From Elusimicrobiota bacterium (GTDB lineage Bacteria > Elusimicrobiota > UBA8919): 34,273 nt of DNA. This document shows, one piece after another, positions 3,536 through 34,235 of this stretch. Position 1 is the first letter of the stretch. Every line of letters begins with the position of its first letter. Position numbers and translations under genes: made by a program. The DNA is taken from the NCBI GenBank assembly GCA_016218625.1, contig JACRDL010000036.1:1-34273 (forward strand). The letters are read 5' to 3'. The notes below the pieces were generated by a model. It saw nothing but the letters and a program-made list of their open reading frames with translations. It was not told the DNA's origin and made no database searches.

Positions 3536-4255
3536 CCGTATTTTTTCCTTAAAAATTTTTAATGCAAAAGAAAAAAGTTTTATAATTCTTAAAATTCTCC
3601 AAGGTTGCTGGGCTACCCGGAAAACCCACTCTATATTTCTGCCTATCATCCATTTCGGCGCCCGTCTTAAATTACCAGATATTACATCAAAACTTCCACC
3701 GACACCCATTGCGATTTTTACGCCCAATTTTTCAAGATTTTTGTTGAGCCATATTTCTTGAAAAGGAGTGTTTAATCCTGCGAAAAGTATTTCCGCCCCG
3801 GACGATTTTATCAGTGAAATTACAGCATGTTCGTTTCCTAAAAAATAGCCGTTATGGAATCCGGCGATTTTTAATTCCGGGAGTTTTTTTTTAATTTCAT
3901 CTGTTGCTTTTTTGATAATTTCTTCTTTAGCGCCGAGGAAAAAAACGGAATGTTTTTTTTGCTGTGCATAGTTAAGTATTGAAATCATGAAATCAATTCC
4001 TGGAATTTTTTCTGAAAGCGGAACTCTCAGAAATTTTGCAGCCCAGCGGACTCCCGCACTTTCGGGAATAACAAGTGCGGCTGTGTCAAAAATATTTTTT
4101 AACTTTTCGTTTTTGTGCGCTTCAAAAATCATTAAAGGATTTGCGGTTATTATTTGGTGCGGATTATTGTCGGTGAGATAACTGCCCACAAGAGTTAACG
4201 CATCAAAAAGTGAGATATTATCAATTCGTGTTGACAATATTTTTATTGACTCCAT
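3509..4255 (-). CDS. WecG/TagA/CpsF-family glycosyltransferase
   Basis: A 248-aa protein matching the family that transfers N-acetylmannosamine (or a related sugar) onto undecaprenyl-diphosphate-GlcNAc in surface polysaccharide synthesis. Visible family signatures are ITANPLMIFEAH, PESAGVRWAAKFL, PGIDFM, VFFLGAKEEI, FHNGYF, FAGLNTPFQEIW, GVGGSFDVISGNLRRAPKW and the C-terminal RVAQQPWR. The C-terminal Lys/Arg-rich helix probably contacts the membrane. It lies 14 bp after smc. No polysaccharide cluster surrounds it, so its polymer is unknown. Only a weak Shine-Dalgarno (GAG) is present. Confidence 0.92.
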   Translation of the reverse strand: MESIKILSTRIDNISLFDALTLVGSYLTDNNPHQIITANPLMIFEAHKNEKLKNIFDTAALVIPESAGVRWAAKFLRVPLSEKIPGIDFMISILNYAQQKKHSVFFLGAKEEIIKKATDEIKKKLPELKIAGFHNGYFLGNEHAVISLIKSSGAEILFAGLNTPFQEIWLNKNLEKLGVKIAMGVGGSFDVISGNLRRAPKWMIGRNIEWVFRVAQQPWRILRIIKLFSFALKIFKEKIRLICVKFYV

Positions 4256-4269
4256 CTTGATTATCTCAA

Positions 4270-7200
4270 TTAGTCATGCGAGGATGAAGCCGCAATCGTA
4301 GTTCTCCGTTCCCCTTCAAGATGCACGGAGATGATTTTGGAAATGCCGAGTTCTTCCATAGTTACACCATAGAGAACATTCGCCGACTCCATCGTGCGTT
4401 TGTTGTGGGTGATGACGAAAAACTGGGATGTTTTGGCGAACTCCTTAAGCATTCTCGTAAATCTTAATACATTTGCCTCGTCAAGTTGACCGTCAATTTC
4501 GTCAAGTATGCAAAACGGCGCGGGTTTTACCAGATATATTGCGAAAAGAATTGCTATTGCGGTAAGCGTTCTTTCTCCGCCAGAAAGAAGTGAAATGTGC
4601 TGAAGTTTTTTCCCCGGCGGCTGCGCTATGATGTCAATACCGGTTTCAAGAAGATTTCCTTCGTCGGTTAAAAGCAGATCCGCCTCGCCACCTTCAAATA
4701 ACTGGTTAAATATATTCCTAAAATTTTCACGGACTACTGTAAATGTTTTCTGAAAGTTTTGACGGGTGGTGATGTTGATTTTGTTTATCGCGTTATGCAG
4801 ATCCTCCCTTGCTTTTTCTAAATCCTCTTTCTGTTTTGTTAAAAAATTATACCGCTGTTCAAGTTGCTCATATTCTTCCGGCGCCGCAAGATTAACCGCA
4901 CCGAGGGTTTCTATTTTCTTTTTCAGTTTTTCAACCTCATCCTGCTCCATTGCCACGGCATTATAGTTATTTACGGCGTCTTCAATTGTGATTCCTTTTT
5001 CTTCTTTTATACGGTTTTCAATCTGCCTGATGTCCGATGATGTGCTTGAAACGGCTCTTTCAAGTGTTCGGATTTCATCCTGAATGGTATTCTGATGCGC
5101 CCTGTGAGTTCTTAAATTATTTTCAAGTTCAGTAATTGCGTTTTTGATTTCATCCCGTTCTTTTTCAATATTTTTAAGGAGATCATCTGCAGTATCTTTT
5201 ATAACAACGATTTTATTTATTTCAGCGGTTGAATCGGATATTATTTTTTCCATCGACGCGATTTTTTCCGCGGAGTCATTTAACCATTTTTTTGATTTTT
5301 CAATTTTTGCCGATGTAAGTTGATAGTTTTTATCAGCAGATTTAATTTTTTCTTTGATATTTTCCAACTGGGAACTTTTGACAGAAAAATCTATTTGTAT
5401 ATCTGTAAAGTCACGCTCCTGTGATTCTCGTTCCGCTTGGAGTTTTTTTATCAGGGAGGTTTGTTCAGAAAATCCGGTTTTTACTGAATTTTCCTGCGCG
5501 GCACATTTAGAAATCTTATCGTTCATTTCTATGATTTCCGACTCTTTTTCGATTTTTTGGTTGTTAAGATTTTCATATTCGGCGGATAAAATTGTAAGAT
5601 AATTAATGGAGGTTTTTAATGACTCTTCTGCCGACGAGAGTTCCGCCATAATCTGCATCAATTCATTTTTTTCAGTTTCCACTGAAACGGTAGCATTATG
5701 TAATTCTGTACCGGTTGAAGTAATTTCTTCCTGGTAATTTTTTATTGACTCGGTGAATTTGCCGATTTCACCGTTTATTGTTGCGGTTTCATTTTTAAGG
5801 CGGTTTATTTCCGCTGATATTTCCAGTGAGCCCCTTAACCGGTTTTCCGGAAGGACAGTTCCGCCGCTTATTAAACCTCTGCTATAAATATTTTCATTTT
5901 TTAGCGTTGCATCATCTAACAGAAACTCAACAATTTTTCTGAATTTCGGTTCGCAGTTGACAAGGTCAGAGATTTTTTTGCCGGAAAATACATTTGAATT
6001 TAAAATTTGCAATTTTTCAATTTCGGACATTATCAAAAATGATGCCCAGCCGTAGTTTCCATTTTTCAGCCAGTTAATTACTTCAATTGCGGTATTTTCG
6101 GTATCTACAATAATGTAATCGCTTTTCTCGCCGAGTGCCGATTGGACAACGGAAATATGTTCATCGCTGACAGTTATTATATCGCTTACCGTTCCGTGAA
6201 CCCGCCCATTGAAAGTTTCTTTTATTTTGGAATGTAATTCGTAATTTGAGTTGTGGCTTATCGCTTCCATCCGTGCAGCAAATTGCGCCCCTAATTCTTT
6301 TTTTGATAAAAGTTCATTCTGGTTTTTTTCTATCTCCGCACGCAGTTGATTTATTTTAGCCGAAAGGTTTTCAATCTTTTTCTTTTTTTCTTCCAGAGTT
6401 AAATTTACAACAGCAATTTTTTCTTTAAGTTCACTTACAGTTTTTTCCTGCTCATCTTTTTTGGACAGTGTCTCCCGTTCCTGAATTTTCTGTTTTTCCA
6501 TTCGGCTATTTATTTCTTTCAGGAATGAATCAACAGAAGTTTTTCTGTTGTGAAGTTCTGACAGTTCGGTGGCACACTTAAAAATTAATTGCCTTAAGTT
6601 CTCAATATCCGAATTTGTTTTTGTAATTTCCGAGATTAGTTTATTTTTCCGTTCGCTTTTTTCGGCAAGTATTTCCTTCGCGGATGAAACGACAATCTCT
6701 GCCTCCTCAAGTTCTTTTTTGGCAGCGGCTAATTCCATTGAATGATTATTCAGGTCTGTTTGTCCCTGCGCGATTTCCTGTTGGGATTCATTAACTCTGG
6801 CAAGATTTTCCTTTTTAGCGGTTTCGGAGGCATGTATTCGCTCGTTTAATATCGCGATGGATGAGTCGATTTTATTTGCCTCGGTGCGTTTTGATATAAG
6901 TTCATCCTCTTTTGCCGTCAGCGTAATTTTTAACTCCGAATATTTTGCATCCAGTTTATCTATCTCAATTGAGACATTTGAAAGTTTTTCATTTATCGCG
7001 GCAAGTTCTTTTAATTTTACCGAGTTGGTTTCTTTAACTTGTTGGTATTTTTGGACGAGAGAGTTGACCTCGTAATTTTTCAGTTCGTCAAGATATTTCT
7101 GGTACTGCCTCGCCTTTCTTGCCTGTGTGTCAAGTTTGCTTTTCTGGCTTTCAAGTTCCGAAAGTATATCGTTCAGTCGCAGCATATCCTGTGAAACCTT

Positions 7201-7746
7201 TTCAAGTTTTCTTAATGCCTCTTCCCGTTTTGATTTGTATTTTGCGACTCCCGCCACTTCTTCAAAAATATATCTTCTTTCCGCAGGTTTTGATTGCAGA
7301 ATAAAATCAATTTTTCCCTGCTCCATTATTGAATATGATTCCGTTCCGATTCCCGTATCCAAAAATAAATCTTTTATGTCTCTCAGACGGACAGGGGTTT
7401 TATTTAACTGATATTCCGATTCACCGGTCCTGAAAAGCCGGCGAGTAACAGATACTTCCGAGTAATCAATAGGAAGCACATTTTTTGAATTGTCAAAAGT
7501 TAAGGTTATTTCTGAAACGGAGGTTTGTTTTCTTTCCGATGTTCCGCTGAAAATAATATCTTCCATTTTTGTTCCGCGAAGCGATTTCGCCGACTGCTCG
7601 CCAAGAACCCATTTTATCGCGTCCGTAATGTTTGTTTTTCCGCATCCATTAGGGCCTACAATTGCAGTAATACCTTCTCCGAAATTGAGAACAGTTCTGT
7701 CCGCAAATGATTTGAATCCGCCGATTTCAATTGTTTTTAAGTGCAT
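4270..7746 (-). CDS. smc: Chromosome segregation ATPase SMC
   Basis: A 1158-aa protein of typical SMC length. Walker A GPNGCGKTN is at residues 31-39 and the N-terminal head runs to about residue 170. Two long coiled coils flank a hinge (about 490-620), which contains the conserved GRVHGTVSDII and ALGEKSDYIIVD. The C-terminal head has LSGGERTLTAIAILFAIY and the Walker B DEIDGQLDEANV; most SMCs have DEVDAALDDANV, so GQ in place of AA is slightly unusual. SMC homodimers compact and resolve the chromosome with ScpA/ScpB, which are not in this window. AAGGAG lies 10 nt before the ATG. A consensus promoter about 150 bp upstream drives it, with a repeat in the leader. Confidence 0.97.
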   Translation of the reverse strand: MHLKTIEIGGFKSFADRTVLNFGEGITAIVGPNGCGKTNITDAIKWVLGEQSAKSLRGTKMEDIIFSGTSERKQTSVSEITLTFDNSKNVLPIDYSEVSVTRRLFRTGESEYQLNKTPVRLRDIKDLFLDTGIGTESYSIMEQGKIDFILQSKPAERRYIFEEVAGVAKYKSKREEALRKLEKVSQDMLRLNDILSELESQKSKLDTQARKARQYQKYLDELKNYEVNSLVQKYQQVKETNSVKLKELAAINEKLSNVSIEIDKLDAKYSELKITLTAKEDELISKRTEANKIDSSIAILNERIHASETAKKENLARVNESQQEIAQGQTDLNNHSMELAAAKKELEEAEIVVSSAKEILAEKSERKNKLISEITKTNSDIENLRQLIFKCATELSELHNRKTSVDSFLKEINSRMEKQKIQERETLSKKDEQEKTVSELKEKIAVVNLTLEEKKKKIENLSAKINQLRAEIEKNQNELLSKKELGAQFAARMEAISHNSNYELHSKIKETFNGRVHGTVSDIITVSDEHISVVQSALGEKSDYIIVDTENTAIEVINWLKNGNYGWASFLIMSEIEKLQILNSNVFSGKKISDLVNCEPKFRKIVEFLLDDATLKNENIYSRGLISGGTVLPENRLRGSLEISAEINRLKNETATINGEIGKFTESIKNYQEEITSTGTELHNATVSVETEKNELMQIMAELSSAEESLKTSINYLTILSAEYENLNNQKIEKESEIIEMNDKISKCAAQENSVKTGFSEQTSLIKKLQAERESQERDFTDIQIDFSVKSSQLENIKEKIKSADKNYQLTSAKIEKSKKWLNDSAEKIASMEKIISDSTAEINKIVVIKDTADDLLKNIEKERDEIKNAITELENNLRTHRAHQNTIQDEIRTLERAVSSTSSDIRQIENRIKEEKGITIEDAVNNYNAVAMEQDEVEKLKKKIETLGAVNLAAPEEYEQLEQRYNFLTKQKEDLEKAREDLHNAINKINITTRQNFQKTFTVVRENFRNIFNQLFEGGEADLLLTDEGNLLETGIDIIAQPPGKKLQHISLLSGGERTLTAIAILFAIYLVKPAPFCILDEIDGQLDEANVLRFTRMLKEFAKTSQFFVITHNKRTMESANVLYGVTMEELGISKIISVHLEGERRTTIAASSSHD

Positions 7747-22990: not shown

Positions 22991-24862
22991 TCAATCCCAC
23001 AGGTACAGATTTATACCGGCGGAATATGTTCTTCCGGGAAGCGGATAATTTTCACGGGAGACATATCTTCTGTCAAAAATATTTTCAACACTGAAAAATA
23101 CTTCTGACTGAAGAATTTTTCTGCTTACCCTTAAATTCGCAAGAGTATAACCGGGAATTTTATGCTCTTTCCAATCTTCCCATATTTGTTTGTGTGTATA
23201 TTCAACTCCAAGTTTTGTTTTGATTTCTAACGGTGCCGAATAATTCAGTCCGTAATTCAGACGATGTTTTGGAGTGTACTGTAATGTTTTATAGGTTCCA
23301 GTTTCTTTACCCATGCTTTCAAGAAAAGTATAATTTAAATTTTGTGTTATGTTTTTTATACTACTATTTTCTATCTCAAATTCAACTCCTCTTGAAAATA
23401 CTTTACCAACATTTGAAGGTGTATAAATTGAACTTGTCGGGCTAATTTTTGCCCACTGAATAAAATTTTTTATATCGCTGTAAAACAGTATTATCTTTGA
23501 AACTAAAATTTCTTTTAGTTTATACTCCATACCGAAATCGGTCCCGATAGATTTTTCAGGTTTGAGTTCCGGATTACCTACACCCATACCGGGAACATCT
23601 GCGTATAAATCATCAAATGTCGGTGCACGAAACGCCCGCCCGACAGTTGAAGAGAGTTTGAAATTATCACTGAGTTTGTAGATATTGACAACTCTCGGAT
23701 TCAACTGTCCGCCGAAAACATTGTTGTAATCATATCTTGTACCAGCAGTTGCTGTTAGACGTTCAAGGTTAAATGTTTTTTGGATAAAGATAGCAGAAGT
23801 ATCAGCCCATTTATCAATAACTGTTGTTTTAGTAAATTCGTTTTTTTTATTGCAGATGTCATGCTTTCCTTCAACTCCGGCAGTTATATTATGTAGTGTG
23901 TCGGCTTGTATAGTTCCTCCGAGAGTATCTGAGATGCCAATATCATCTTTTTGGGGGCTATCGGGGTCTCTAAGACGAAAATATTTCTGCTGAAAGTAAA
24001 TTTTGGATTGCAATTTTGTTTCATCCGAGAGTTTTTTTTCATAATTTAATTCATATACCTGTTTTCTTGTTTTCATATTCTGATTTGGTGTTTTTGCTGT
24101 TTGCTCTTTATCATTGTCATAATCAGCAATTTCTGTTTTGTTTGTTCCGGGTATTCCCAGTTCGTCATTGTGGTGATTTATAAATGTTCCGAATTTCCCG
24201 ATTTTGTCAAAATCATAGCCAATTTTTGATGAGAGATTTAAGCCGTCATATTCAGAATTTTCCCTGAACCCGTCGGATACATTTTTACTTCCTGAAAGAA
24301 AAATGTTTGCCTTTCCGGGTTTTGCAGAAAAATTCATTTTACAGGATTTTGTGCTGAAACTTCCATATTCAAGTCCAATTTCGGTTTTTGGTTTTGCGGT
24401 AATTGCTTTTTTTGTTATGATATTTACAACACCGCCAAGAGCGTTTGCACCGTAAAGTGCTGAAGAAGGTCCTCGCATAACTTCTATTCTTTCAATATTT
24501 TCAGTAGGTATTTCAGAAAGATTCGCTGAACCTGCCGCACTTCCCAAAATATCATTTACAGGTCTTCCGTCAACCATAACAAGAACCTGTTTTGATGAAT
24601 CCTTGCCGCCTCTTATATTTATTTCCGAATGCGCTCCCAGAGTTCCATATTTTAATACCTGAATGACCCCGGTTTTATTTTCCAAAATCTCACCAACAGT
24701 TTTTGCGTCTGACTTTTCAATTTCGTCTTCTGTTATTACAGTAATATTCGTCGCTGTTTTTTCAACAGGCACCTCCTTTCTCAATCCGATAAACACTGTT
24801 GTTTCCTGTGCAAAAAGCACACCCATTCCCAATAAAACTAAACCAACAAAAAACTTTTTCAT
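22991..24862 (-). CDS. btuB: TonB-dependent vitamin B12 receptor (BtuB-like)
   Basis: 623 aa. Signal peptide at residues 1-18 (MKKFFVGLVLLGMGVLFA), a possible TonB box close after it (TTVFIG), a plug domain with VGEILENKTGV, INIRGG, VLVMVDGRPVND, IERIEVMRGPSSALYGANALGGVVNIITKK, then a 22-strand-type barrel containing GRAFRAPTFDDLY, GNPELKPEKS and the final VENIFDRRY block. It imports a large ligand across the outer membrane using TonB/ExbBD. Corrinoid specificity is inferred from the cobalamin riboswitch directly upstream and the BtuFCD-CobO genes before it. Strong GGAGG 10-12 nt before the ATG. A terminator follows. Confidence 0.92.
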   Translation of the reverse strand: MKKFFVGLVLLGMGVLFAQETTVFIGLRKEVPVEKTATNITVITEDEIEKSDAKTVGEILENKTGVIQVLKYGTLGAHSEINIRGGKDSSKQVLVMVDGRPVNDILGSAAGSANLSEIPTENIERIEVMRGPSSALYGANALGGVVNIITKKAITAKPKTEIGLEYGSFSTKSCKMNFSAKPGKANIFLSGSKNVSDGFRENSEYDGLNLSSKIGYDFDKIGKFGTFINHHNDELGIPGTNKTEIADYDNDKEQTAKTPNQNMKTRKQVYELNYEKKLSDETKLQSKIYFQQKYFRLRDPDSPQKDDIGISDTLGGTIQADTLHNITAGVEGKHDICNKKNEFTKTTVIDKWADTSAIFIQKTFNLERLTATAGTRYDYNNVFGGQLNPRVVNIYKLSDNFKLSSTVGRAFRAPTFDDLYADVPGMGVGNPELKPEKSIGTDFGMEYKLKEILVSKIILFYSDIKNFIQWAKISPTSSIYTPSNVGKVFSRGVEFEIENSSIKNITQNLNYTFLESMGKETGTYKTLQYTPKHRLNYGLNYSAPLEIKTKLGVEYTHKQIWEDWKEHKIPGYTLANLRVSRKILQSEVFFSVENIFDRRYVSRENYPLPGRTYSAGINLYLWD

Positions 24863-24894
24863 ACTTTTTTCCTCCCTCCGAGAATATTTCCCAA

Positions 24895-25012
24895 AATAGA
24901 CAATCGGCCGGGCTCAACTTCAGATGACAGATCTGAATGTTATTACCGTTGCGGGGCAGCGTCCCGAATTACACGGGAACTTCCTTTGCCTATCCGGTAG
25001 ATTACATTTCTT
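24895..25012 (-). promoter_or_regulatory. Cobalamin riboswitch upstream of btuB
   Basis: Read on the minus strand, GGCAAAGGAAG, then a CCCGTGTAATTCGGG stem, then GCTGCCCCGCAACGGTAA, match the conserved core and B12 box of AdoCbl-type riboswitches (consensus around GCCCCGCCACTGTA). Further 3' is a GAAGTTGAGCCCGGCCGA segment comparable to the distal GGAAGNCAGGAGACCTGCC part, though divergent. Boundaries are approximate. B12 should lower btuB expression. No clear promoter is visible between the cobO stop and the riboswitch, so it may act inside the operon. Confidence 0.85.
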
Positions 25013-25053: not shown

Positions 25054-25587
25054 TTAGTATTCTATTCCTTTTCTTCGTTGAATTCCTTTATCAAATGGAT
25101 GTTTAACTTTTTTTATTTCACTGACTAAATCTGCAATTTGAATTATTTTTTCTGTTGCATCGCGGCCTGTTAAAACGATTTCCAGATTTTCTGGCTTTTT
25201 ATTCAGTAATTCAAGTAATTCTTCTTCAGAAATAAATTTATCTCTGACGGAAATAAGAATCTCGTCAAGTATAAGCAGGTCATATTTTCTCTGTTGAAAT
25301 ATTTCTTCAATAAATTTAAGTGCTAAAAGACATTCTTCTCTGATTTTTTCTACCGGCTCATTTTTATAAAAATGCGGATGCCGTTCAGCGAATCTATAAA
25401 TATCCACACTAAGTTGTTTCAACAATTTTAGTTCACCATAATGTTCGTCTTTATGTTCTCCTTTATGAAAATTGATGTAGCACACTTTTAATCCGTGCCC
25501 GAGTGCCCTTGATGCAAGTCCTATTGCTGCCGTTGTTTTACCTTTACCATCGCCGGTATAAACCTGAACCAATCCTTTGTTTTTCAT
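25054..25587 (-). CDS. cobO: Cob(I)yrinic acid a,c-diamide adenosyltransferase (CobO/CobA/BtuR)
   Basis: 177 aa. The P-loop YTGDGKGKTTAAIGLASRALGHG (from residue 10) and the blocks CYINFHKGEH, ILDEI and VLTGRDA...LVSEIKKVKHPFDKGIQRRKGIEY match the CobO/BtuR family. It attaches the 5'-deoxyadenosyl group of ATP to cob(I)alamin or corrinoid precursors, in synthesis or salvage. AAGGAGG is 6-7 nt before the ATG, and btuD ends 12 bp upstream. Placement after the transporter fits adenosylation of imported corrinoid. Confidence 0.95.
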   Translation of the reverse strand: MKNKGLVQVYTGDGKGKTTAAIGLASRALGHGLKVCYINFHKGEHKDEHYGELKLLKQLSVDIYRFAERHPHFYKNEPVEKIREECLLALKFIEEIFQQRKYDLLILDEILISVRDKFISEEELLELLNKKPENLEIVLTGRDATEKIIQIADLVSEIKKVKHPFDKGIQRRKGIEY

Positions 25588-25599
25588 CGGTTTTCCTCC

Positions 25600-26382
25600 T
25601 TATGATGTTTCACCAGGGACTAAAAATATATATGGTTTATGTGTAACCGGATTTTCTTTTACAATGACCACAGTTCTGTAGACCTCCTCTATTGTTTGAT
25701 AAGTTAGCACTTCCTTCGGTATTCCGCTTTTGTGGATCAAACCGTTATTAAGCAACAATAACCTATTACAGTATTCACTTGCTAAATTAAGGTCATGCAG
25801 AACCATACACACTGTAAGACCGAAGTCCCTGTTTAATTTTTTTACAAGATCCAGAATTACTACCTGGTGGGTTATGTCCAGATGTGAAGTGGGTTCATCT
25901 AACAGAAGTAATTTCGGCTCCTGTGCCAATGCTTTTGCAATAAGAACAAGTTGTTTTTCTCCCCCGCTTGTTTCCGAGAGAAACCTGTCTTTTAACTTGT
26001 GAGTATCGGTTAAAACCAGACATCTTTCTGCAATTTCTAAATCCTTTTTTGTTTCTAAAAATTGAAATCTCTGAAAATATGGGATTCTGCCTAAAAGAAC
26101 AAATTCTTCAACGGTCATAAAATCTATATTAAAATCTTGCGGTACAACCGCTACTTTTTTAGCAAGTTCTTTTAATTCCATCTGTGCAATATTTTTTCCT
26201 TCAATGAGAATCAATCCCTGCCCTGGATTAAGTATTTTGGTTATTGCACGCAGGAGAGTAGTTTTTCCGGAACCGTTAGGTCCTATTATTCCTACAATTT
26301 CACCGTGCTGTATATTAAAATTTATATTTTGGAGAAAAAATTTCGAGTCGTATCCGCAAGATAAATTTCTTACCTCAAGCAT
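25600..26382 (-). CDS. btuD: Corrinoid ABC transporter ATPase (BtuD-like)
   Basis: 260 aa. Walker A GPNGSGKTT at about 35-43, Q-loop VVPQDFNIDF, ABC signature in ETSGGEKQLVLIAKALAQ, Walker B LLLLDEPTSHLD and the switch histidine in VLHDLNLASEYC. It belongs to the FecCD-partner ATPases (BtuD/FhuC/HmuV), which take up B12, siderophores or heme. B12 specificity comes from context: adenosyltransferase downstream, corrinoid synthesis genes upstream, B12 riboswitch nearby. The start codon overlaps the btuC stop (TAATG). Confidence 0.92.
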   Translation of the reverse strand: MLEVRNLSCGYDSKFFLQNINFNIQHGEIVGIIGPNGSGKTTLLRAITKILNPGQGLILIEGKNIAQMELKELAKKVAVVPQDFNIDFMTVEEFVLLGRIPYFQRFQFLETKKDLEIAERCLVLTDTHKLKDRFLSETSGGEKQLVLIAKALAQEPKLLLLDEPTSHLDITHQVVILDLVKKLNRDFGLTVCMVLHDLNLASEYCNRLLLLNNGLIHKSGIPKEVLTYQTIEEVYRTVVIVKENPVTHKPYIFLVPGETS

Positions 26383-27398
26383 TATTTTCCTCCCAGAACA
26401 ACCTGCTTTTTGCTCAAAGTATAAACAAAAAGAGAACCGCCGAGTATTCCGGTAATTACTCCGACGGGCAATTCCAGAGGAGAAATCACCGTTCTTGCTA
26501 ATGTATCACAGAAAATTAAAAAGATTGCTCCGCTTAAAAAGGAACTTATTAAAAGAATTCTATGGTCTCCTCCCACAAACATTCGCACAAAATGAGGTAC
26601 AACCAATCCCACAAAACCGATTATTCCGGATATGGAAACGCTGCAACCAGTAAGCAAAGATGCAAGAATAAAAAGCAATCTCTTGGTTTTTTCTACATTT
26701 ATACCCAAATGCAATGCTTCTTCTTCACCGAGAGAAAAAGCATTTAAGTCCAGACAGAAAAAATAAGAAATAATCAGTCCGAAAATAGAGACAAAAACCG
26801 CCAACTTTATAAGAAACCAGTTTGGCTCTTCTAACGAGCCCATTATCCAGAAAATAATTCCGTGAAGGTCTTCTACACGAGAGACAGCCATAATAAGCAT
26901 AATCAAAGACGAGGAAATAAAACTTATCATTACCCCTGTTAGAAGAAGCCCTTGAATTCTTAATATACCTCTTTTTATACTTAAAGAATACACGAGCAAA
27001 ATAATTAAAATAGCACCAAGAAAACCAAAAAGAGGCAATGAAAAAATACCGAGAATGTGGTTTAATCTTAAAACGATATTCAGGCATACGCCTAATGCTG
27101 CTCCGCCTGAAATACCGAGGGTATAGGGCTCAACAAGAGGATTTCTAAACATTCCCTGAAGGATTACCCCGGCTATGCTCAAACCGCCGCCTATGGCGAA
27201 GCCTAAAATAATTCTCGGTAAGCGGATATCAAAAATTATGCTGTATTCGGTAGTTCCTTTACCCTCAAAGATTAGAGAAATAACTTTTTTGAAAGGTATA
27301 CCTGCCGCACCGATACATAAAGAGAGAATACATACAGAAAGAAGAATCCCGCCTAAAAATAATATCCAAATAATCCATCTAAATAATTTCTTACTCAT
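26382..27398 (-). CDS. btuC: Corrinoid ABC transporter permease (BtuC-like, FecCD family)
   Basis: 338 aa, multi-helix inner-membrane protein of normal FecCD length. Landmarks are FDIRLPRIILGFAIGGGLSIAGVILQGMFRNPLVEPYTLGISGGAALG in the N-terminal half, GSLEEPNW in the middle, and SISGIIGFVGLVVPHFVRM with ELPVGVITGILGGSLFVYTL at the end. It forms a homodimeric channel for the ligand delivered by the periplasmic binding protein. The ATG overlaps the btuF stop by 4 bp, and its stop overlaps the btuD start. Confidence 0.93.
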   Translation of the reverse strand: MSKKLFRWIIWILFLGGILLSVCILSLCIGAAGIPFKKVISLIFEGKGTTEYSIIFDIRLPRIILGFAIGGGLSIAGVILQGMFRNPLVEPYTLGISGGAALGVCLNIVLRLNHILGIFSLPLFGFLGAILIILLVYSLSIKRGILRIQGLLLTGVMISFISSSLIMLIMAVSRVEDLHGIIFWIMGSLEEPNWFLIKLAVFVSIFGLIISYFFCLDLNAFSLGEEEALHLGINVEKTKRLLFILASLLTGCSVSISGIIGFVGLVVPHFVRMFVGGDHRILLISSFLSGAIFLIFCDTLARTVISPLELPVGVITGILGGSLFVYTLSKKQVVLGGK

Positions 27399-28213
27399 TT
27401 GTGTAATATTTCAGCTATTTCTTTCAGTACTTCAACAAAACTTTCCGGCGTGGGACTGCAAACTTTATCCGAATCAATAATATAAATTCTGTTATTTTTT
27501 ACTGCATTTATCGTTTTGTATTTCTGCCAGGTTTTTTTTTCTTTATCTCCCTGAATACCCATTGTAAGAATAATTATCACATCCGGATTTTGTTTGAGTA
27601 CTTCTTCCCGACTGTAAAGTCCTGTTTTTGCATTTTTAGCGATATTTATTCCGCCGGCGAATTCTATCAGGTCATTTATAAAATAATCTTTATTTGCAAC
27701 AAAAAGCGGATTTGCACCAATCTGAACTATTACTTTGAGTTTCGGCAATTTACTCATTTTTTGTTTTACAATATTTATTTTCTCTGTTGCTTCTTTAATT
27801 ATTTTATTTGCTTTCTGTTTCTTATTAACTATTTCTGATAGTTGTAAAAAAAATTCGCATAGTTCTGAAAATTTTTTTGCCGGGGAAAATGTAACAACAT
27901 TTACTTTAACATTCCGAAGTTTCTCTATTTGTCTGTTATCCATTATTGATGAACATAGAACAATATCAGGTTTAAGCGATATAATTTTTTCTAAATTCAT
28001 ATTTGTAAAAGTTCCGACAATTTCTTTATCTTTTACTTCAGGTAGTTCCTTGCAATAAAAACTTATTCCGACAATTTTATTTTCAACTCCTAAAAGGCAA
28101 AGAGATTTAGTTATTATAGGTGCTAATGAAATAATTTGTTGATATTGGTAGTCGGCGTTTAAACGCCGACTACATAAAATCAACAGAAGAGCAATAAAAT
28201 TTCTTAGTTTCAT
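27395..28213 (-). CDS. btuF: Corrinoid ABC transporter substrate-binding protein (BtuF-like)
   Basis: 272 aa from the ATG at 28213, whose ATGA overlaps the stop of the radical SAM gene; a 15-codon longer reading is rejected. The signal peptide hydrophobic run is NFIALLLILC (residues 5-14). The mature protein has IISLAPIITKSLCLLGVENKIVGIS, VGTFTNMNLEKIISLKPDIVLCS, NDLIEFAGGINIA and a C-terminal IYIIDSDKVCSPTPE, matching class III helical-backbone binding proteins such as BtuF. CSRRLNADY (14-22), at the end of the signal peptide, is encoded by a perfect 26-bp palindrome, so the processing site is uncertain. Cys14 might serve as a lipid anchor but the lipobox is poor. Confidence 0.9.
   Translation of the reverse strand: MKLRNFIALLLILCSRRLNADYQYQQIISLAPIITKSLCLLGVENKIVGISFYCKELPEVKDKEIVGTFTNMNLEKIISLKPDIVLCSSIMDNRQIEKLRNVKVNVVTFSPAKKFSELCEFFLQLSEIVNKKQKANKIIKEATEKINIVKQKMSKLPKLKVIVQIGANPLFVANKDYFINDLIEFAGGINIAKNAKTGLYSREEVLKQNPDVIIILTMGIQGDKEKKTWQKYKTINAVKNNRIYIIDSDKVCSPTPESFVEVLKEIAEILHK
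28148..28173. repeat. In-frame 26-bp perfect palindrome inside btuF
   Basis: Half-site GTAGTCGGCGTTT followed by its exact complement, fully self-complementary. It shares the GTAG...CTAC edges with 22891-22916 and 22926-22978. Read in frame at the signal-peptide/mature boundary. Confidence 0.9.
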
Positions 28214-29064
28214 GGCAAATTCAAAATTTGATTCATAGTAAAATATTCCATATTCCAATCGGGAATTACCGATTTAGATATTTTATCAATCTCCTTGAAT
28301 CTATCCAAAAGTTCATCTGCCCGAACCTCTATATGCTTATAAGGATCAGGTTTGTAAGCAGTTTCGGTCGTGTAAAACTCAACATTGTCCAAATATCTTT
28401 TGGCAACAGAATATGCCTTTCGCATCTCCTGATGAGTCGGTGTTCTTGAAACTTTCTTATCTAATTGTTCAGGTGCAAATTGATATATTTTGTAAGTTAT
28501 ATTTTTTGAAATTTGGCTTAAAAATTTTGCTATTTTTTTTATCTCCTCAAAATCCATTATATCAGGCATAAATATTGTCCGAACATAAAAGTTCAAATTA
28601 TAATGATGCAGTAACTTCACCGCCCTCAATATAGTAGCATTGCTTTTACCCGTATAGTGTTTATGGATTTTATCAGTATATGCTTTCAGGTCAAGTTTGA
28701 TATAATTTATATTCAGTGACTTTAACTCTTTGATTAAATTCCTGTCCAGCAAATAGCCATTTGTAGACATGCCAATTTTGTTGATATGCAAGTCACTTAA
28801 TTTTTGGATTAAAGAGATTAAATAATCTGCATTTGTTGTCGGTTCACCGCCGGTCATTTGAACATCATTAACCATTTCGCCGAGAATGACTTTTGAAGAT
28901 TTAATAAGTAAATTAAGAAGTTCTTCAACGGAAAAACTTCTTCCCATTTCCTTCTTGGCAATAGCAAAACATCCCTTACAGTTAAAATTACATCCGGCTA
29001 AATTAATTTTCACTTTTTTTGTAGGGCTTACTACAAATGTTAAAAACGGCACTTTTCTATACAT
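28210..29064 (-). CDS. Radical SAM protein, unknown substrate (second radical SAM of the B12 operon)
   Basis: 284 aa from the ATG at 29064, which overlaps the end of the restored Dph6-like gene by 8 bp. The radical SAM cluster motif is C25-x3-C29-x2-C32 (AGCNFNCKGC), GGEP is at 72-75, then STNGYLLD and KLDLKAYTDKIHKHYTGK. The lack of a SPASM cysteine cluster and the small size resemble the activating-enzyme-type (PflA-like) or PqqE-lacking-SPASM group; the reaction is unknown. It is tightly coupled to btuF (ATGA overlap). In this operon it could act on the peptide product, on a corrinoid, or on a partner enzyme. Confidence 0.82.
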   Translation of the reverse strand: MYRKVPFLTFVVSPTKKVKINLAGCNFNCKGCFAIAKKEMGRSFSVEELLNLLIKSSKVILGEMVNDVQMTGGEPTTNADYLISLIQKLSDLHINKIGMSTNGYLLDRNLIKELKSLNINYIKLDLKAYTDKIHKHYTGKSNATILRAVKLLHHYNLNFYVRTIFMPDIMDFEEIKKIAKFLSQISKNITYKIYQFAPEQLDKKVSRTPTHQEMRKAYSVAKRYLDNVEFYTTETAYKPDPYKHIEVRADELLDRFKEIDKISKSVIPDWNMEYFTMNQILNLP

Positions 29065-29252
29065 TGATAATTTCCAAAAACCAGTGATTATCTTTGAATA
29101 TTTTTCTGCCAATTTTAAACTTTAATAATTTTTTGAAAATTGGTCCATTATAAACGAATGTATGATATTCCCCGCCTTCACCGCAGAGGTCGACATTCCC
29201 TAATTTTTTTAAGTCCTCCACAAAACTTTTATTTATTTCTTTACCCAGCCAT
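29057..29252 (-). pseudogene. Detached C-terminal part of the Dph6-like ATP pyrophosphatase (frameshift)
   Basis: In the frame one base off from the preceding gene, the sequence reads KWLGKEINKSFVEDLKKLG, then VDLCGEGGEYHTFVYNGPIF and ends in TAG at 29059-29057. This is the missing C-terminus of the family (LGEYHTFVxDGPIF block). One base lost from an A-run (TTTT on the plus strand, 29252-29255) explains the break. It may be a real frameshift, programmed slippage or an assembly error. Confidence 0.8.
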
Positions 29253-29703
29253 TTTCATCTAAAAACTTTACATTTGTCGCAACAATAATTGCTTTAAATC
29301 CTGAATCAATAAATTCAGTAATCAATTTTTCTCTTTCCTCTTTCCATAAAGGCAAAATCGGAGTTATACCTATTTCTTTACAGACCCTTTCTACCCAATC
29401 CCTGTGTTCCTGTAAATCAATATCGCCGAATATGCCGCAAGAAATATTTTCTTTTTTAAATTCCGAAATAACTTTTTTAAATTCTTTTTCATAATTTTTC
29501 CACGAACTTTTTCTTTGAATAATCGGAATTCCGATTGAATCCGCCTGCAATTTTAATAAGTTTGAGGAAATACCGTGTGTCCGGGAATGTTTACCGTCTT
29601 CGGCAATCATATTAATAAGGAATGATACTTCATAATTTTTTAACGCTCTATATAAAGCAAGACAACTATCTTTACCGCCGCTCCAACAACAGAATGTTTT
29701 CAT
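29233..29703 (-). CDS. Dph6/ATP_bind_4-family ATP pyrophosphatase, truncated by frameshift
   Basis: 156 aa as read. PP-loop WSGGKDSCLALYRA (residues 8-21), EDGKHSRTHGIS, then CGIFGDIDLQEHRDWVERVC and ILPLWKEEREKL match the family of diphthine-ammonia ligase (Dph6) and its bacterial relatives of unknown function. Bacteria do not make diphthamide, so the bacterial substrate is different; an ATP-dependent amidation or thiolation is plausible. The reading stops at DENGWVKK, but the rest of the domain continues in another frame to 29057, giving about 215 aa if restored. Its ATG overlaps the cbpB-like stop by 4 bp (ATGA). Its place in the corrinoid operon suggests a role with the peptide or corrinoid. 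Confidence 0.85.
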   Translation of the reverse strand: MKTFCCWSGGKDSCLALYRALKNYEVSFLINMIAEDGKHSRTHGISSNLLKLQADSIGIPIIQRKSSWKNYEKEFKKVISEFKKENISCGIFGDIDLQEHRDWVERVCKEIGITPILPLWKEEREKLITEFIDSGFKAIIVATNVKFLDENGWVKK

Positions 29704-31103
29704 ATCTGCGTTACCTCCAAACTATTAAGCATTCCCTTATCCCAATTATCCCAGAGGTATGCATCCTCTTTACCATCGGCAATTAAACGTAATGCGTAGC
29801 GTGCCTGTTCCTCATAAAGTTCGCAAAAAGCACCTGGCTTTTCTATGGAACCACCCATTTCATTGGCTTCGGCAGGGCAAGGTGAACCACAGAAGTGACG
29901 AACAGCACAACGGGAACAGGGTTCAATATTTTCAATATGTCTGTTTGTAACAAGATTGAATGGTTCTGTTTTTAAAACTTTATTAATGTCATCTTTGAAA
30001 ATATTACCGCCTTTAAATTTTTCTAAACCAATAAACTCACTACAAGGAAATAAATCACCGCTACATGAAATTGCAAAAAAGCATCTTCCTCCGCCGCAGG
30101 GTGAGATGTCGCACATTAGTTGGCGCCCGCTTGGAGCAATGATACCCATCAAGACATTAGCAAAATTTGCCACCACAAGTTTACGCCCGGTTTTTTTATA
30201 AAGATGATAAGTACGGTCTAATGCCTTCAAGTAATGTTTTGATATCTGATAATCCACTGGTTTATACTGCCGGGCACCAGAGAGAGTGCAACGGATGGGA
30301 TTCAACATGCAAATCGGTACTTCCATCTTGTGTAAAAACTCAACTATTTTCGTAAGTGAGGACATATTTTTATTTGTTGTTGTGCAAATCACAGAATAAT
30401 TTTTGTAACCTCTGAGGCGATTTATTGCTTCTATTACATTTTGAAAGATACCCTTGCCATTCCAGTTTTTGCGTAGTTGATCGGCTACCTTTGCATTGTG
30501 GCCGTCAAGCGAAAGCCCGATACTTACTCCTCTTGAAGTCAAAAATTCTATCGCCTCAGCATCTAAAAGTGTGCCATTGGTCTGTATGCCGAAACGGAAA
30601 TATTTTCTAAATTTGTCTATAGCCGAAAAAACAGTTTTTTTATTAAGCATTGGCTCGGCACCATGGAAAACAATTTGTGGTTTTTGACCTTTAGGTAAGG
30701 TATGCTTAAAATAAATCTTTAGGATTTCAAGTGCTCTTGAAAGCTTCTCAACGGACATATTTTTTCCATTTTTACGTAAATTCTCAGGGATATAACAGTA
30801 TGAACAATTCAGATTACACCGGTCAGTAGGATTAAAATAAACTGCCGAGGGTTTCAAACCAAATCTCAGAATGTTCATCTCATTGACAAAAGATTTTTCT
30901 TTTTTGCGGTATTCGCGCAGATATGACGAGTCGGTCAAAGCCCGTCCAAGTCGGTTTTTTTTAACAAGTGACCAGAACGCGGTGTCCGCAGATATCAATC
31001 CGATATAGTCATTATGCCCGATATCTATAGGTTGAATCTGAAGCCCATTTCCTGTATTAAGATAAATTCCTTGAGACAATGCATAATTATTTACAATTTT
31101 CAT
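29700..31103 (-). CDS. Radical SAM/SPASM peptide-modifying enzyme, CbpB-like
   Basis: 467 aa. An N-terminal roughly 85-residue domain precedes the radical SAM motif C96-x3-C100-x2-C103 (DRCNLNCSYCY). GAEP at 149-152 is the SAM-binding equivalent, IQTNGTLLD follows, then a SPASM region with ten cysteines between 331 and 427 (C331, C336, C341, C347, C354, C396, C399, C405, C409, C427), enough for two auxiliary Fe-S clusters. Such enzymes typically modify ribosomal peptides. I recall a curated family CbpB, paired with precursor CbpA and found next to cobalamin genes; neighbourhood and the 35-aa gene upstream fit it well. AGAGG lies 4-5 nt before the ATG. A 13-bp hairpin separates it from the precursor gene. 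Confidence 0.82.
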   Translation of the reverse strand: MKIVNNYALSQGIYLNTGNGLQIQPIDIGHNDYIGLISADTAFWSLVKKNRLGRALTDSSYLREYRKKEKSFVNEMNILRFGLKPSAVYFNPTDRCNLNCSYCYIPENLRKNGKNMSVEKLSRALEILKIYFKHTLPKGQKPQIVFHGAEPMLNKKTVFSAIDKFRKYFRFGIQTNGTLLDAEAIEFLTSRGVSIGLSLDGHNAKVADQLRKNWNGKGIFQNVIEAINRLRGYKNYSVICTTTNKNMSSLTKIVEFLHKMEVPICMLNPIRCTLSGARQYKPVDYQISKHYLKALDRTYHLYKKTGRKLVVANFANVLMGIIAPSGRQLMCDISPCGGGRCFFAISCSGDLFPCSEFIGLEKFKGGNIFKDDINKVLKTEPFNLVTNRHIENIEPCSRCAVRHFCGSPCPAEANEMGGSIEKPGAFCELYEEQARYALRLIADGKEDAYLWDNWDKGMLNSLEVTQI

Positions 31104-31182: not shown

Positions 31183-31290
31183 TTATTTCTTATCCACAAG
31201 GATGTAATGGGAAAGACCGGTACCGGTTGTCTTGCATTTTTTTCGATAAGCAACAATATTTTTCTTCGTATTGCGTTTTGTTTTCTTCAC
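31183..31290 (-). CDS. CbpA-like ribosomal peptide precursor, 35 aa
   Basis: A small gene not long enough for usual gene callers. GTG start at 31290 with GAGGGGG about 8 nt upstream, lying in the last codons of the asparagine-synthase-like gene (stop at 31296), hence translational coupling. The peptide starts with a basic leader-like half (KKTKRNTKKNIVAYRKK, 9 Lys/Arg) and ends with CKTTGTGLSHYILVDKK, carrying a single Cys (19), His (28) and two Tyr (15, 29). It sits directly upstream of the SPASM radical SAM gene, the classical precursor position. It resembles what I remember of the CbpA precursor family. A GTG three codons earlier is possible but too close to the ribosome binding site. Confidence 0.78.
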   Translation of the reverse strand: MKKTKRNTKKNIVAYRKKCKTTGTGLSHYILVDKK

Positions 31291-31295
31291 TCGTA

Positions 31296-32219
31296 TCACC
31301 CCCTCTTTTTACAAATTACATAGCCACAAACATTACAGTGAAAAGCAGTGCGTTCCATTTCCGCTCTGCATCCAGGACATTTTTTTTGGTTGTTTTTGGG
31401 TTTTGGAATTTCTCCAACTTCCTTTCTGTAAATTTCATAATAATAAAGATGCTCTTTGTTAAAAAACTTTATGGGATAAATTTTTTTCTTTTTTTCAAAT
31501 TCGTCATCAGAAATTTTTGAACTGATAATCTCCCTTAATTTTGTCATACCAGAACCGTATTCCAACGGTCTTTTATTCTGCCATATAATTTCTTTGGGCA
31601 AATCCTTCTCAAATGCTTTTCTTAATATCCATTTGCCGAAAACCTTATTATGCTCTTTTCTTATTTTGAATTTTTTATCTATTGATAAAGCAAATTTAGT
31701 AAAGTTCTTGTCCATATACGGCTGTTCTATTTTTAATCCGAAATACTTCCCAATTTCATTTGAACTGAAATACATTTTTTTTGATATTTGTTGAATATAA
31801 TTATTCAAATTATTTATTTCTTTCATATAATCATACCCGCCAAAAAGTTCATCGCTTCCATCACCGGTCATTATGCTTTTTAACCCGAGTTTTTTGGCGA
31901 ATTTTAATCCAAAATAAACGGTTATATCATTAGGAATTGCAGGGTCAAAACTTTTCAGTATTTTTATTATTTGTGGTATTACAGAAATCGCTTCATCAGT
32001 TTTTATTGTCAGGTAATATGTTTTTAAGTGAAGAAATTTTTCCAACATTTTTGCGAATTTAAGGTCGGGCGCGAAATTTTCCAAACTTACATTTATCGCT
32101 GCAATATTTGGAGAGAGTACCGCTAAAATGCTTGTATCCAATCCGCCGGAGAAAAGCATTCCTTCGGCGGAATTTCGTTTTACAGATAACATCAATTTTT
32201 GTTTTAATTTATTAATCAT
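31296..32219 (-). CDS. Stand-alone asparagine-synthase-type ATP pyrophosphatase with C-terminal zinc ribbon
   Basis: 307 aa. The AsnB synthetase domain is recognisable from FSGGLDTS (23-30, PP-loop), IMTGDGSDELFGGYDYM, KIEQPYMDKNFTKFAL and RKAFEKDLPKEIIWQNKRPLEYGSG. The N-terminal glutaminase domain (catalytic Cys2) is entirely absent, so ammonia or an amine of another substrate must be used. The C-terminus adds a zinc ribbon, CPGC (281-284) and CNVC (295-298), with an extra C303. Glutaminase-free AsnB homologues activate carboxylates in macrolactam-forming RiPP pathways (lasso peptide cyclases), so it may act on the adjacent peptide or on a corrinoid side chain. Its ATG overlaps the cbiB stop (ATGA). 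Confidence 0.85.
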   Translation of the reverse strand: MINKLKQKLMLSVKRNSAEGMLFSGGLDTSILAVLSPNIAAINVSLENFAPDLKFAKMLEKFLHLKTYYLTIKTDEAISVIPQIIKILKSFDPAIPNDITVYFGLKFAKKLGLKSIMTGDGSDELFGGYDYMKEINNLNNYIQQISKKMYFSSNEIGKYFGLKIEQPYMDKNFTKFALSIDKKFKIRKEHNKVFGKWILRKAFEKDLPKEIIWQNKRPLEYGSGMTKLREIISSKISDDEFEKKKKIYPIKFFNKEHLYYYEIYRKEVGEIPKPKNNQKKCPGCRAEMERTAFHCNVCGYVICKKRG

Positions 32220-33148
32220 AATAAAACCAAGCCCGCAATCAAAAACAAGCCGGATGATATATACGCAATTTTTATACTTTTTTTAATATGTCCTTTATCT
32301 AATGGATGACAATTATCTCCGAGGAATGGTTTTGTCACAGCAATGGAGTTATAAAAATTCATTCCGCCTAACCGTATTCCCAATGCACCTGCAACAGCGG
32401 CCTCGGGAATATCACTTATCTGTCTATTTTTTAGCCCATCACGAAAAATTATCTTGAAAGAAGAAAACAAACTACATCTGCAAAATAAACTTGCTAAAGG
32501 TATAAGAAATATTGATAATATTGCGGGTATAAAATTTGCTATTGTGTCAATCTTAGCAGAGCACCATCCGAAGTCCCGATATTTTTCGTTATTATATCCA
32601 ACCATTGAGTCAAGAGTATTTATTGATTTGTAAGTTAATGCTAATGCCGGTCCGCCGATTAAAGCATAAAAAAGCGGGGAGATTATTCCATCAACAATGC
32701 TTTCAGCGATTGTTTCTATGGTTGCGCGAATAATTTCTCGTTCGTTTAAGTTTTCAGTATCTCTTCCTACAATCATAGATAATTTTTCCTTTGCTATATC
32801 TAAATCATTTTTTTTCAGTGCCCAATACACTTCCAAACTTTCTACTTTCAAGTCCTTTACCGATAAAGAAGTATAAATCAAGAAAATTGAAATTCCACAT
32901 CCAAAATAAAAATTAAAAGTAGTTGATAATTTTACAATCAAAAAAGTTACATAAAATGTTCCGCCAATAATTAAAAAAGCAAGAACAGTCCCGCCTGTTT
33001 TTTTATTTCCAAGTTTTTTCCTTAAAAAATTTTCAAGTATCTCAACCGTTTTACCTATTAATTTTACGGGATGAGGAAACCGCCTCGGGTCACCAAAAAT
33101 CAAATCCAGAATATATGCAATAGGGATAGTTAATAGTTCATAGTTCAT
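32216..33148 (-). CDS. cbiB: Adenosylcobinamide-phosphate synthase CbiB
   Basis: 310 aa, several membrane helices. The N-terminal block AYILDLIFGDPRRFPHPVKLIGK (GDP...PHPV) and the middle block VGRDTENLNEREIIRATIETIAESIVDGIISPLFYALIGGPALALTYKSINTLDSMVGYNNEKYRDFGWCSAK are diagnostic. It joins the aminopropanol phosphate arm to cobyric acid; the arm is made by the upstream CobD, so the two genes form one biochemical unit. Its ATG lies 11 bp inside the end of cobD, in a heptamer tandem repeat. In Pseudomonas nomenclature the same enzyme is called CobD. Confidence 0.96.
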   Translation of the reverse strand: MNYELLTIPIAYILDLIFGDPRRFPHPVKLIGKTVEILENFLRKKLGNKKTGGTVLAFLIIGGTFYVTFLIVKLSTTFNFYFGCGISIFLIYTSLSVKDLKVESLEVYWALKKNDLDIAKEKLSMIVGRDTENLNEREIIRATIETIAESIVDGIISPLFYALIGGPALALTYKSINTLDSMVGYNNEKYRDFGWCSAKIDTIANFIPAILSIFLIPLASLFCRCSLFSSFKIIFRDGLKNRQISDIPEAAVAGALGIRLGGMNFYNSIAVTKPFLGDNCHPLDKGHIKKSIKIAYISSGLFLIAGLVLL

Positions 33149-33154
33149 AGTTTA
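33127..33154. repeat. TAGTTCA heptamer tandem repeat across the cobD/cbiB overlap
   Basis: Four 7-bp units: TAGTTAA, TAGTTCA, TAGTTCA, TAGTTTA. Read on the minus strand they encode NYEL at the end of CobD and again NYELL at the start of CbiB, and contain the cobD stop and the cbiB start. Confidence 0.8.
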
Positions 33155-34235
33155 GAGTTTTGTTTAATTCGTTTATTAGTAAAAAGTTCTCATCCCTTTT
33201 TCTTACAGCAACACGAAAAAATTTATTATTTAATCCGCGGAAATTACTACAATTGCGAATTAGTATTCCTTTTTTCCCAAGTAAATCTGTAAGTTTATCT
33301 GAATTAAACTTATTCGTTGTAAGTTGACATAGAATGAAATTTGCTGATGGTGGATATGGTTTAAGTCCGGTTACCATTTCTAATTTCTTAAAAAATATTT
33401 CTTTTTCTTTAAGAATATATTCACGAGTTTGTTTGATATAAGATGAATCCTTAATTACCTCTTTGCCAACCAATTGTCCAAAACAGTTAACAGACCATGG
33501 TATCTGAAATTTAGAAATGTTTTTTATTATTTTTTTATTTCCAACGAGATATCCTACTCGGAGTCCAGGTATTGCAAAAAATTTAGTAAGTGACCTTAAT
33601 ACTATAATGTTTGAACTTTTAGCAGCGATTTTAACCATTGTTAAATTATCAGCATCTTTTACAAAATCAATGAACGCCTCATCTATTACGAGAGTAACAT
33701 TATACCTTCGGCAGTTTTTTATTAATGTTAGAAGTTCTTCTTTTGAAAATACAAATCCTGTAGGATTATTCGGGTTGCATAAAAAAATTAAATCTATTTT
33801 CGGTAAAAACTTAATTATTTTCTCAATTTTTATTTCAAAATTTTCAGTTTTTTTTGCTTTAAAAAAAACACACTTTCCGCCCGTCAAATTTACTGCTGTT
33901 TCATACTCGCTAAAAGTAGGTATTGGTATAAGAACCTTTTTTGGTTTTAATGCCTGAACAATAAGAAAAATCAGTTCAGATGAACCGTTTCCTATTAATA
34001 GATTTTCGGAACCGATTTTCAGGTATTTTTTAAGAGTATCTTTTAAGTCAGTACATTCAGAATCAGGATAATGGATTATAGAGTGTATGTTATTAGTTAT
34101 GATATTTTTTACACTTTTTGGTAATCCGAGAGGATTTATATTTGCGCTGAAATTGAGAATGTTTTCAGTATTATATTTTTTAATTGCTTCTGTAATATTT
34201 CCGCCGTGTAAAGTTTTCAATTTGTCCACCGCCAT
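33138..34235 (-). CDS. cobD: Threonine-phosphate decarboxylase CobD (PLP)
   Basis: 365 aa, fold type I PLP enzyme close to histidinol-phosphate aminotransferase. LHGGNI near the N-terminus, NFSANINPLGLP, NPNNPTG (154-160), DEAFIDF (185-191) and the PLP lysine K218 in RSLTKFFAIPGLRVGYL; the HGGN start and the place before cbiB favour CobD over HisC. It decarboxylates L-threonine-3-phosphate to (R)-1-amino-2-propanol phosphate for the nucleotide loop of cobalamin. The ATG at 34235 has no clear Shine-Dalgarno, and a GTG two codons later is possible. Only 38 bp lie upstream in the window, so the operon's promoter and earlier genes are outside. Confidence 0.93.
   Translation of the reverse strand: MAVDKLKTLHGGNITEAIKKYNTENILNFSANINPLGLPKSVKNIITNNIHSIIHYPDSECTDLKDTLKKYLKIGSENLLIGNGSSELIFLIVQALKPKKVLIPIPTFSEYETAVNLTGGKCVFFKAKKTENFEIKIEKIIKFLPKIDLIFLCNPNNPTGFVFSKEELLTLIKNCRRYNVTLVIDEAFIDFVKDADNLTMVKIAAKSSNIIVLRSLTKFFAIPGLRVGYLVGNKKIIKNISKFQIPWSVNCFGQLVGKEVIKDSSYIKQTREYILKEKEIFFKKLEMVTGLKPYPPSANFILCQLTTNKFNSDKLTDLLGKKGILIRNCSNFRGLNNKFFRVAVRKRDENFLLINELNKTLNYEL

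Follow-up and report, generated by a model that had tools for sequence, protein, structure and literature searches.

In the window, the 34,273-nucleotide stretch of Elusimicrobiota DNA analyzed here, a stand-alone AsnB-type synthetase is encoded directly ahead of a short precursor peptide and within a set of vitamin B12 genes. This arrangement raises the question of whether the enzyme forms an amide bond on the peptide or on a corrinoid. The original prediction had treated an isopeptide or amide bond in the peptide as a concrete possibility, with amidation of a corrinoid intermediate as the alternative. Here we use AsnBL, a name coined in this analysis, for the AsnB-like clade that contains the protein. 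Gene context argues for the alternative: AsnBL most likely amidates a corrinoid carboxylate during salvage, and a role in attaching the nucleotide-loop linker is the main rival.

The predicted anatomy of the region at 31296-32219 (synthetase domain, ribbon, and coupling to cbpA) is real and far beyond chance. The protein matched the Pfam family Asn_synthase (PF00733, E 8.1e-32), and its nearest solved chain was Escherichia coli AsnB (1ct9, 2.5e-22) in an alignment that begins at AsnB residue 210 and covers the synthetase domain only. Because the intact PP-loop already starts at residue 24, there is no space for a class-II glutaminase, and no glutaminase family was found among the Pfam matches of the window protein or of 22 family members. 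The other Pfam matches of the window protein were zinc-finger-like or due to chance, and zinc-ribbon models matched part of the members. The gene ends with AAG AGG GGG TGA, followed by TACGA and the GTG start of the 35-aa ORF, so that the AGGGGG lies 8 nt ahead of this GTG; the ribosome binding site of the precursor gene is thus contained in the last AsnBL codons, as had been proposed. Scores against curated AsnB models were 152.9 for NF006949 (cut-off 499) and 101 for TIGR01536 (cut-off 267.1), a shortfall that is explained in part by the missing glutaminase domain. No curated family covers AsnBL: all NCBIfam scores of the window protein lie far under cut-off.

On the minus strand, the gene order is CobD, CbiB, AsnBL, CbpA, CbpB, a broken DUF71 gene, a radical SAM gene, BtuF, BtuC, BtuD, CobO, and a BtuB-like receptor (Table 1), and the whole is a corrinoid uptake and salvage cluster. 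The last 4 bases of the CbiB gene (32216-32219), its stop included, are also the first of AsnBL. Two pieces make up the DUF71-B12 gene, a frame at 29233-29703 and a further PF01902 fragment at 29066-29263, with intervening stops. Either the assembly is wrong here or the gene has recently become a pseudogene; loci L020 and L163 carry intact relatives. The downstream fragment carries EGGEYH, and the motif of this subgroup is given as ENGEF/YH in the DUF71 paper (PMC3541065). The radical SAM protein of the window and that encoded at 4254-5138 (+) of L020, both from CbpB/AsnBL loci, are 51% identical.

Table 1. Features of the AsnBL gene and its surroundings in the window
Feature	Position	Strand	Description
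AsnBL ORF	31296-32219	-	ATG start, 307 aa; stand-alone AsnB-type synthetase (PP-loop ATP pyrophosphatase) domain with C-terminal zinc ribbon
PP-loop SGGLDTS	32130-32150	-	AsnBL residues 24-30
GDGSDE motif	31848-31865	-	AsnBL residues 119-124; counterpart of AsnB GEGSDE
Lys216	31572-31574	-	Aligns with E. coli AsnB Lys449; Lys in 36/36 AsnBL rows
Zinc ribbon CPGC...CNVC	31326-31379	-	Cys281/284/295/298; all four invariant in 22/22 aligned relatives
Shine-Dalgarno AGGGGG of cbpA	31299-31304	-	Within the final two AsnBL codons
CobD (threonine-phosphate decarboxylase)	33138-34235	-	TIGR01140, 326.8 bits (cut-off 290.55)
CbiB (adenosylcobinamide-phosphate synthase)	32216-33148	-	TIGR00380, 222.5 bits (cut-off 165.9)
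CbpA precursor peptide	31183-31290	-	35 aa, GTG start; TIGR04164, 44.8 bits (cut-off 35)
CbpB radical SAM/SPASM peptide maturase	29700-31103	-	TIGR04163, 702 bits (cut-off 375)
DUF71-B12 PP-loop ATPase gene	29066-29703	-	Frame broken in assembly; PF01902; EGGEYH on downstream fragment
Radical SAM gene	28210-29112	-	No curated name over cut-off (NCBIfam search)
BtuF, BtuC, BtuD-type ABC importer genes	25600-28258	-	PF01497, PF01032, PF00005; BtuF NCBIfam match below cut-off
CobO/BtuR corrinoid adenosyltransferase	25054-25587	-	PF02572, 7.5e-59
BtuB-like TonB receptor	22991-24862	-	Best NCBIfam match TIGR01779, 218.5 bits (under cut-off 599.7); PF00593
Possible AdoCbl riboswitch ahead of BtuB-like gene	24857-25008	-	RF01482, 39.6 bits, E 2e-4 (below gathering score 50)

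In the window's phylum, four of 294 genomes (G000, G006, G204, and G270) were found to encode AsnBL-type proteins without a long N-terminal frame, and three more weak matches lay inside frames of 556-618 aa. An alignment of the four was used for one scan of genome contigs with two short patterns, and 345 genomes of a second phylum, to which a Desulfobacterales MAG belongs, were searched as well and supplied 12 of the 36 loci considered below. The set of at least 36 AsnBL loci is a sample, not a census. For the 345 genomes, AsnBL was called at E < 1e-100 (13 genomes); in the other 36 genomes, the best matches had E-values between 1e-27 and 1e-58 and lay for the most part in frames of some 500-630 aa. 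L037, which has an insertion and no ribbon, was excluded from the 36, the ribbonless L036 and L054 were retained, and G311, a doubtful AsnBL case, is among the 25 genomes searched and outside the 36. A 300-aa frame of the CbpB genome G632 had neither PP-loop nor ribbon in the inspected part. None of the 20 matches in a pattern scan of viral contigs was a relative, and the annotated entries among the 40 listed of 60 plasmid matches all bear asparagine-synthase names.

The loci of this sample span archaea, Dehalococcoidia, Omnitrophota, Nitrospirota, and relatives of Desulfobacterales. The four-Cys pattern is present in 34/36, the exceptions being the fragment L036 and L054, in which it is absent. 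In a tree built by a quick method, with some long rows and with 26 conventional AsnB synthetase domains (E. coli AsnB included) hand-picked out of 85 candidates, the 36 AsnBL sequences fell on one side of a branch and the AsnB domains on the other (SH-aLRT 99). Orthology to an AsnB that makes free asparagine, which the original prediction had named as an outcome that would speak against it, was not observed; AsnBL is a separate branch. Lasso cyclases were also sought as an outgroup, and none exceeded the cut-off in 20 genomes.

Next to AsnBL, B12 genes are frequent. A cob/cbi nucleotide-loop, adenosyltransferase, or CbiZ gene was located within 6 kb in 20/36 loci, with reference proteins that had been checked against Pfam or NCBIfam. 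When BtuF plus BtuC was also accepted, linkage was counted in 24/36 AsnBL loci versus 1/49 conventional AsnB control loci, the controls sharing their scan with some of the AsnBL cases. The 12 loci in which linkage as counted was absent, some of them on short contigs, are L018, L028, L030-L036, L039, L167, and L169; the thaumarchaeal members among them (L031-L036) include long flanks and had no B12 genes beyond a general ABC match. An Rfam scan of 21 loci placed a cobalamin riboswitch upstream of AsnBL, on the same strand and with no opposing gene between, in 12, and in L019 AsnBL is the first gene after the riboswitch, about 130 nt behind it. A particularly clear arrangement, that of L163, has on one strand a riboswitch followed by BtuB-like, CobU, CobT, CobS, CbiB, CobD, AsnBL, DUF71, BtuF, BtuC, and BtuD genes. 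AsnBL therefore belongs to B12 uptake and salvage operons in several lineages of bacteria and archaea, and the amide bond it makes is probably on a B12 precursor taken up by the cell and not on the small peptide encoded beside it. This context is informative about the pathway of AsnBL, not about its reaction. Of the two readings in the original prediction, amidation of a corrinoid intermediate is the favored one.

AsnBL is often found next to DUF71, which is encoded within 6 kb in 18/36 loci; in 13/36, the two genes share a strand and lie no more than 300 bp apart. The DUF71-B12 subgroup of PF01902 resembles AsnBL in being a PP-loop ATPase of B12 salvage operons, but belongs to a different PP-loop family. 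According to the parts of the 2012 study by de Crecy-Lagard that deal with this subgroup (PMC3541065), its role in B12 salvage was predicted from gene context, its authors proposed a CbiZ-like function as a route parallel to CbiZ, and a reviewer objected that PP-loop ATPases form amides and do not cleave them. With AsnBL as a second amide-forming PP-loop enzyme beside DUF71-B12, a ligase step would fit better. In the same parts of that paper, the sole mention of AsnB concerns a glutaminase-AsnB-DUF71 fusion of a few archaea, and we found no report of AsnB-type genes in B12 operons in the open-access literature. CbiZ was detected in 7/25 genomes searched, is located beside AsnBL in 4/36 loci, and shares the cluster in L020, L023, and L029, so AsnBL is not simply a substitute for CbiZ, and replacement of CbiZ was rejected. 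Two fusions were seen at AsnBL loci. L021 encodes, at 4962-6398 (+), DUF71 fused to a BtuF-type periplasmic-binding-protein domain (PF01902 and PF01497), an odd joining of a cytoplasmic-type ATPase to a binding-protein domain. L023 encodes, at 5214-7277 (+) and directly ahead of AsnBL, a BtuF-type binding protein fused to CbiZ (PF01497 and PF01955).

CobQ/CbiP, taken as the marker of cobyric acid synthase, exceeded the cut-off in 2/37 genomes, G399 and G311, which amounts to 1/36 AsnBL genomes. Partial sub-threshold CobQ matches were present in six Thaumarchaeota, G295, and G313. The rarity of CobQ/CbiP suggests that most bacterial AsnBL carriers are salvage-only, as judged by this marker alone in a set that includes several incomplete genomes. 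Thaumarchaeal members may differ from these bacterial carriers.

We then consider the peptide. Both CbpA and CbpB (TIGR04164 and TIGR04163) exceed cut-off beside the window AsnBL, and as NCBIfam already names the two families, the peptide system as such is known, although no paper naming either model was found in the open-access literature; Haft and Basu (2011) is reportedly a source on such systems. It is quite improbable that AsnBL modifies CbpA by an isopeptide, a macrolactam, or a C-terminal amide. What speaks for such a reaction is the coupling of the genes in the window, an overlap of AsnBL with CbpA in L020 much like that in the window, and an adjoining cluster in L021, but the order in L021 (CbpA, CbpB, AsnBL) is unlike that of the window, and the three AsnBL encoded beside CbpB form no subclade, being dispersed through a bacterial clade of 19 rows. 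The distributions are also separate. CbpB exceeded the cut-off in 3/25 genomes (G311 included) and in 0/12 added genomes, that is, in 3/36 AsnBL genomes. Conversely, it was found in 5/294 genomes of the window's phylum, where G000 is the sole genome with both CbpB and AsnBL, and none of 31 CbpB genomes among the 345 of the other phylum carries AsnBL, a zero overlap with the 13 AsnBL genomes that does not show exclusion because only 1.2 would be expected. Since AsnBL is missing from 4/5 and 31/31 CbpB genomes, the CbpA/CbpB pair occurs without AsnBL, which is not a constant component of the system. AsnBL occurs mainly without the peptide gene, an outcome that the original prediction had named as speaking against its peptide reading. 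Around the 30 examined CbpB loci of the other phylum (L133-L162), the simple CbpA motif YRKxCxxxGTGLSHY was seen near 13, and few B12 genes lay within 1.5 kb.

In lasso precursors, an Asp or Glu is located 7-9 residues from the core start. In the window CbpA, the only candidate for this position is D33, the sole acidic residue of the 35. Three of nine CbpA sequences checked have no acidic residue at all, which means that isopeptide formation through a side chain is not general, and the core holds no conserved acidic residue. The lasso cyclase model NF033535 does share distant synthetase-domain homology with AsnBL (17/22 members match at 1e-3 or better, best 4.4e-13), but the window protein scored 28.1 bits against a cut-off of 525, has about half the length of the model, and has a B12 context. 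A lasso or isopeptide cyclase was rejected on distribution, model score, and CbpA residues, and this part of the prediction is left without support. The same holds for the suggestion that the ribbon docks the peptide, as the ribbon is kept in relatives without CbpB. In the account favored below, the ribbon would be a fixed structural part of the AsnBL family.

The fold and the conserved residues bear on the chemistry. An AlphaFold2 model from a 22-row alignment (pLDDT 93.2, pTM 0.90) matched human ASNS (Z 28.5, rmsd 2.3) and E. coli AsnB (Z 26.7, rmsd 2.2) with 272 aligned residues each, followed by beta-lactam synthetase (Z 25.6) and carbapenam synthetase (Z 24.0); the absence of other fold families from the match lists was not counted as evidence. 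AsnBL thus has in common with AsnB and ASNS a predicted fold, the PP-loop (35/36 rows, the remaining row being the fragment L036), and the equivalents of AsnB Asp351 and Lys449 (36/36), and differs in its missing class-II glutaminase, its ribbon, its separate clade, and two positions, Gly428 (36/36 versus 3/26 AsnB rows) and Glu453 (29/36 versus 0/26; AsnB numbering). The beta-lactam and carbapenam synthetases are ligases derived from AsnB that are not known to make asparagine themselves; they retain an N-terminal glutaminase-like domain in chains of about 500 aa, whereas AsnBL lacks such a domain and carries the ribbon. Thiolation and the ligation of other amines are also within the range of PP-loop enzymes, a point against the reading of AsnBL as an ammonia-using amide ligase. 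The Arg of the TTIR motif, which we take to be the aspartate-binding residue of AsnB, is present in 11/36 AsnBL (0/22 in the bacterial clade) and in 7/26 AsnB rows; because most conventional AsnB rows lack it too, the argument that the aspartate site is lost was dropped. Together, the sequences and the model suggest that AsnBL is active as an adenylating ligase and has a substrate pocket of its own, in which, with no glutaminase present, the nucleophile would have to be free ammonia or another amine.

These properties leave several substrates to be weighed. An ammonia-dependent asparagine synthetase whose location in B12 operons is incidental has in its favor that the nearest characterized relatives and folds are asparagine synthetases, and that the sole other PF00733 match in G000 is weak (a 225-aa frame on C73, E 5.3e-7). 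This is an unlikely account, given the riboswitch and B12 linkage, the distinct clade with its own conserved positions, and the long conventional AsnB frames that coexist with AsnBL in many genomes; on clade and context, a plain asparagine synthetase was rejected. Moreover, an AsnRS match at 1e-60 was absent in 12/24 AsnBL genomes searched (G311 left out). No AsnRS match was found in G000, G006, G204, and G270, so that, judged from AsnRS only, translation in these genomes has no obvious need for a supply of free asparagine.

A target in the B12 import machinery, either a protein or a small molecule, could be proposed because BtuB or BtuF is encoded near AsnBL in 15/36 and 19/36 loci, respectively, and zinc ribbons, which often mediate protein contact, might provide a contact element. 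No conserved target was seen, and cob genes occur with no importer gene found within 6 kb in L017, L026, L027, L038, and L054, which makes such a target very doubtful. More weight, although still that of a minority view, is given to a nucleotide-loop or linker step, in which AsnBL together with DUF71-B12 would join an amine other than ammonia (e.g., aminopropanol or a variant) to cobyric acid at its f-side-chain carboxylate, or would drive a CbiZ-independent loop exchange. AsnBL is directly associated with CbiB, CobD, and CobS in several loci, and the proposed parallel of DUF71-B12 to CbiZ (PMC3541065) would suit this role. On the other hand, CbiB and CobD themselves perform the step and are encoded near AsnBL in 10/36 and 12/36 loci, so AsnBL would be redundant at those loci. 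Replacement of CbiB by AsnBL was rejected, as CbiB sits beside it.

We therefore slightly favor a function of AsnBL as an ATP-dependent, AMP-forming amide ligase of corrinoid (vitamin B12) salvage, with the pathway read from gene context and the reaction suggested by the enzyme family. After import of the corrinoid, AsnBL, possibly with DUF71-B12, would adenylate a carboxylate of the salvaged corrinoid and couple it to free ammonia, and the amidated corrin would thereby become usable by CbiB, CobU, CobT, and CobS. The overlap of AsnBL and cbpA in the window would then be the operon packing of two B12-linked genes. A more specific and tentative version, which is possible but has less than even chances, is that corrinoids that are damaged or under-amidated are remodeled or amidated anew by AsnBL and DUF71-B12, acting as a pair of PP-loop ligases that use ammonia.

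AsnBL points to an ATP-dependent step of vitamin B12 salvage without an assigned gene, and to a riboswitch-linked family spread over Omnitrophota, Nitrospirota, Thermodesulfobacteriota, Chloroflexota, and Archaea. It is set apart from CbpA/CbpB, a system to which a peptide cyclase would otherwise be wrongly ascribed, and offers a candidate partner for the long-unexplained DUF71-B12. If the two ligases do form a corrinoid-repair pair, this would explain the presence of two amide-forming ATPases beside the importer in salvage loci, and would allow salvage-only bacteria and archaea that lack cobyric acid synthase to use degraded B12.
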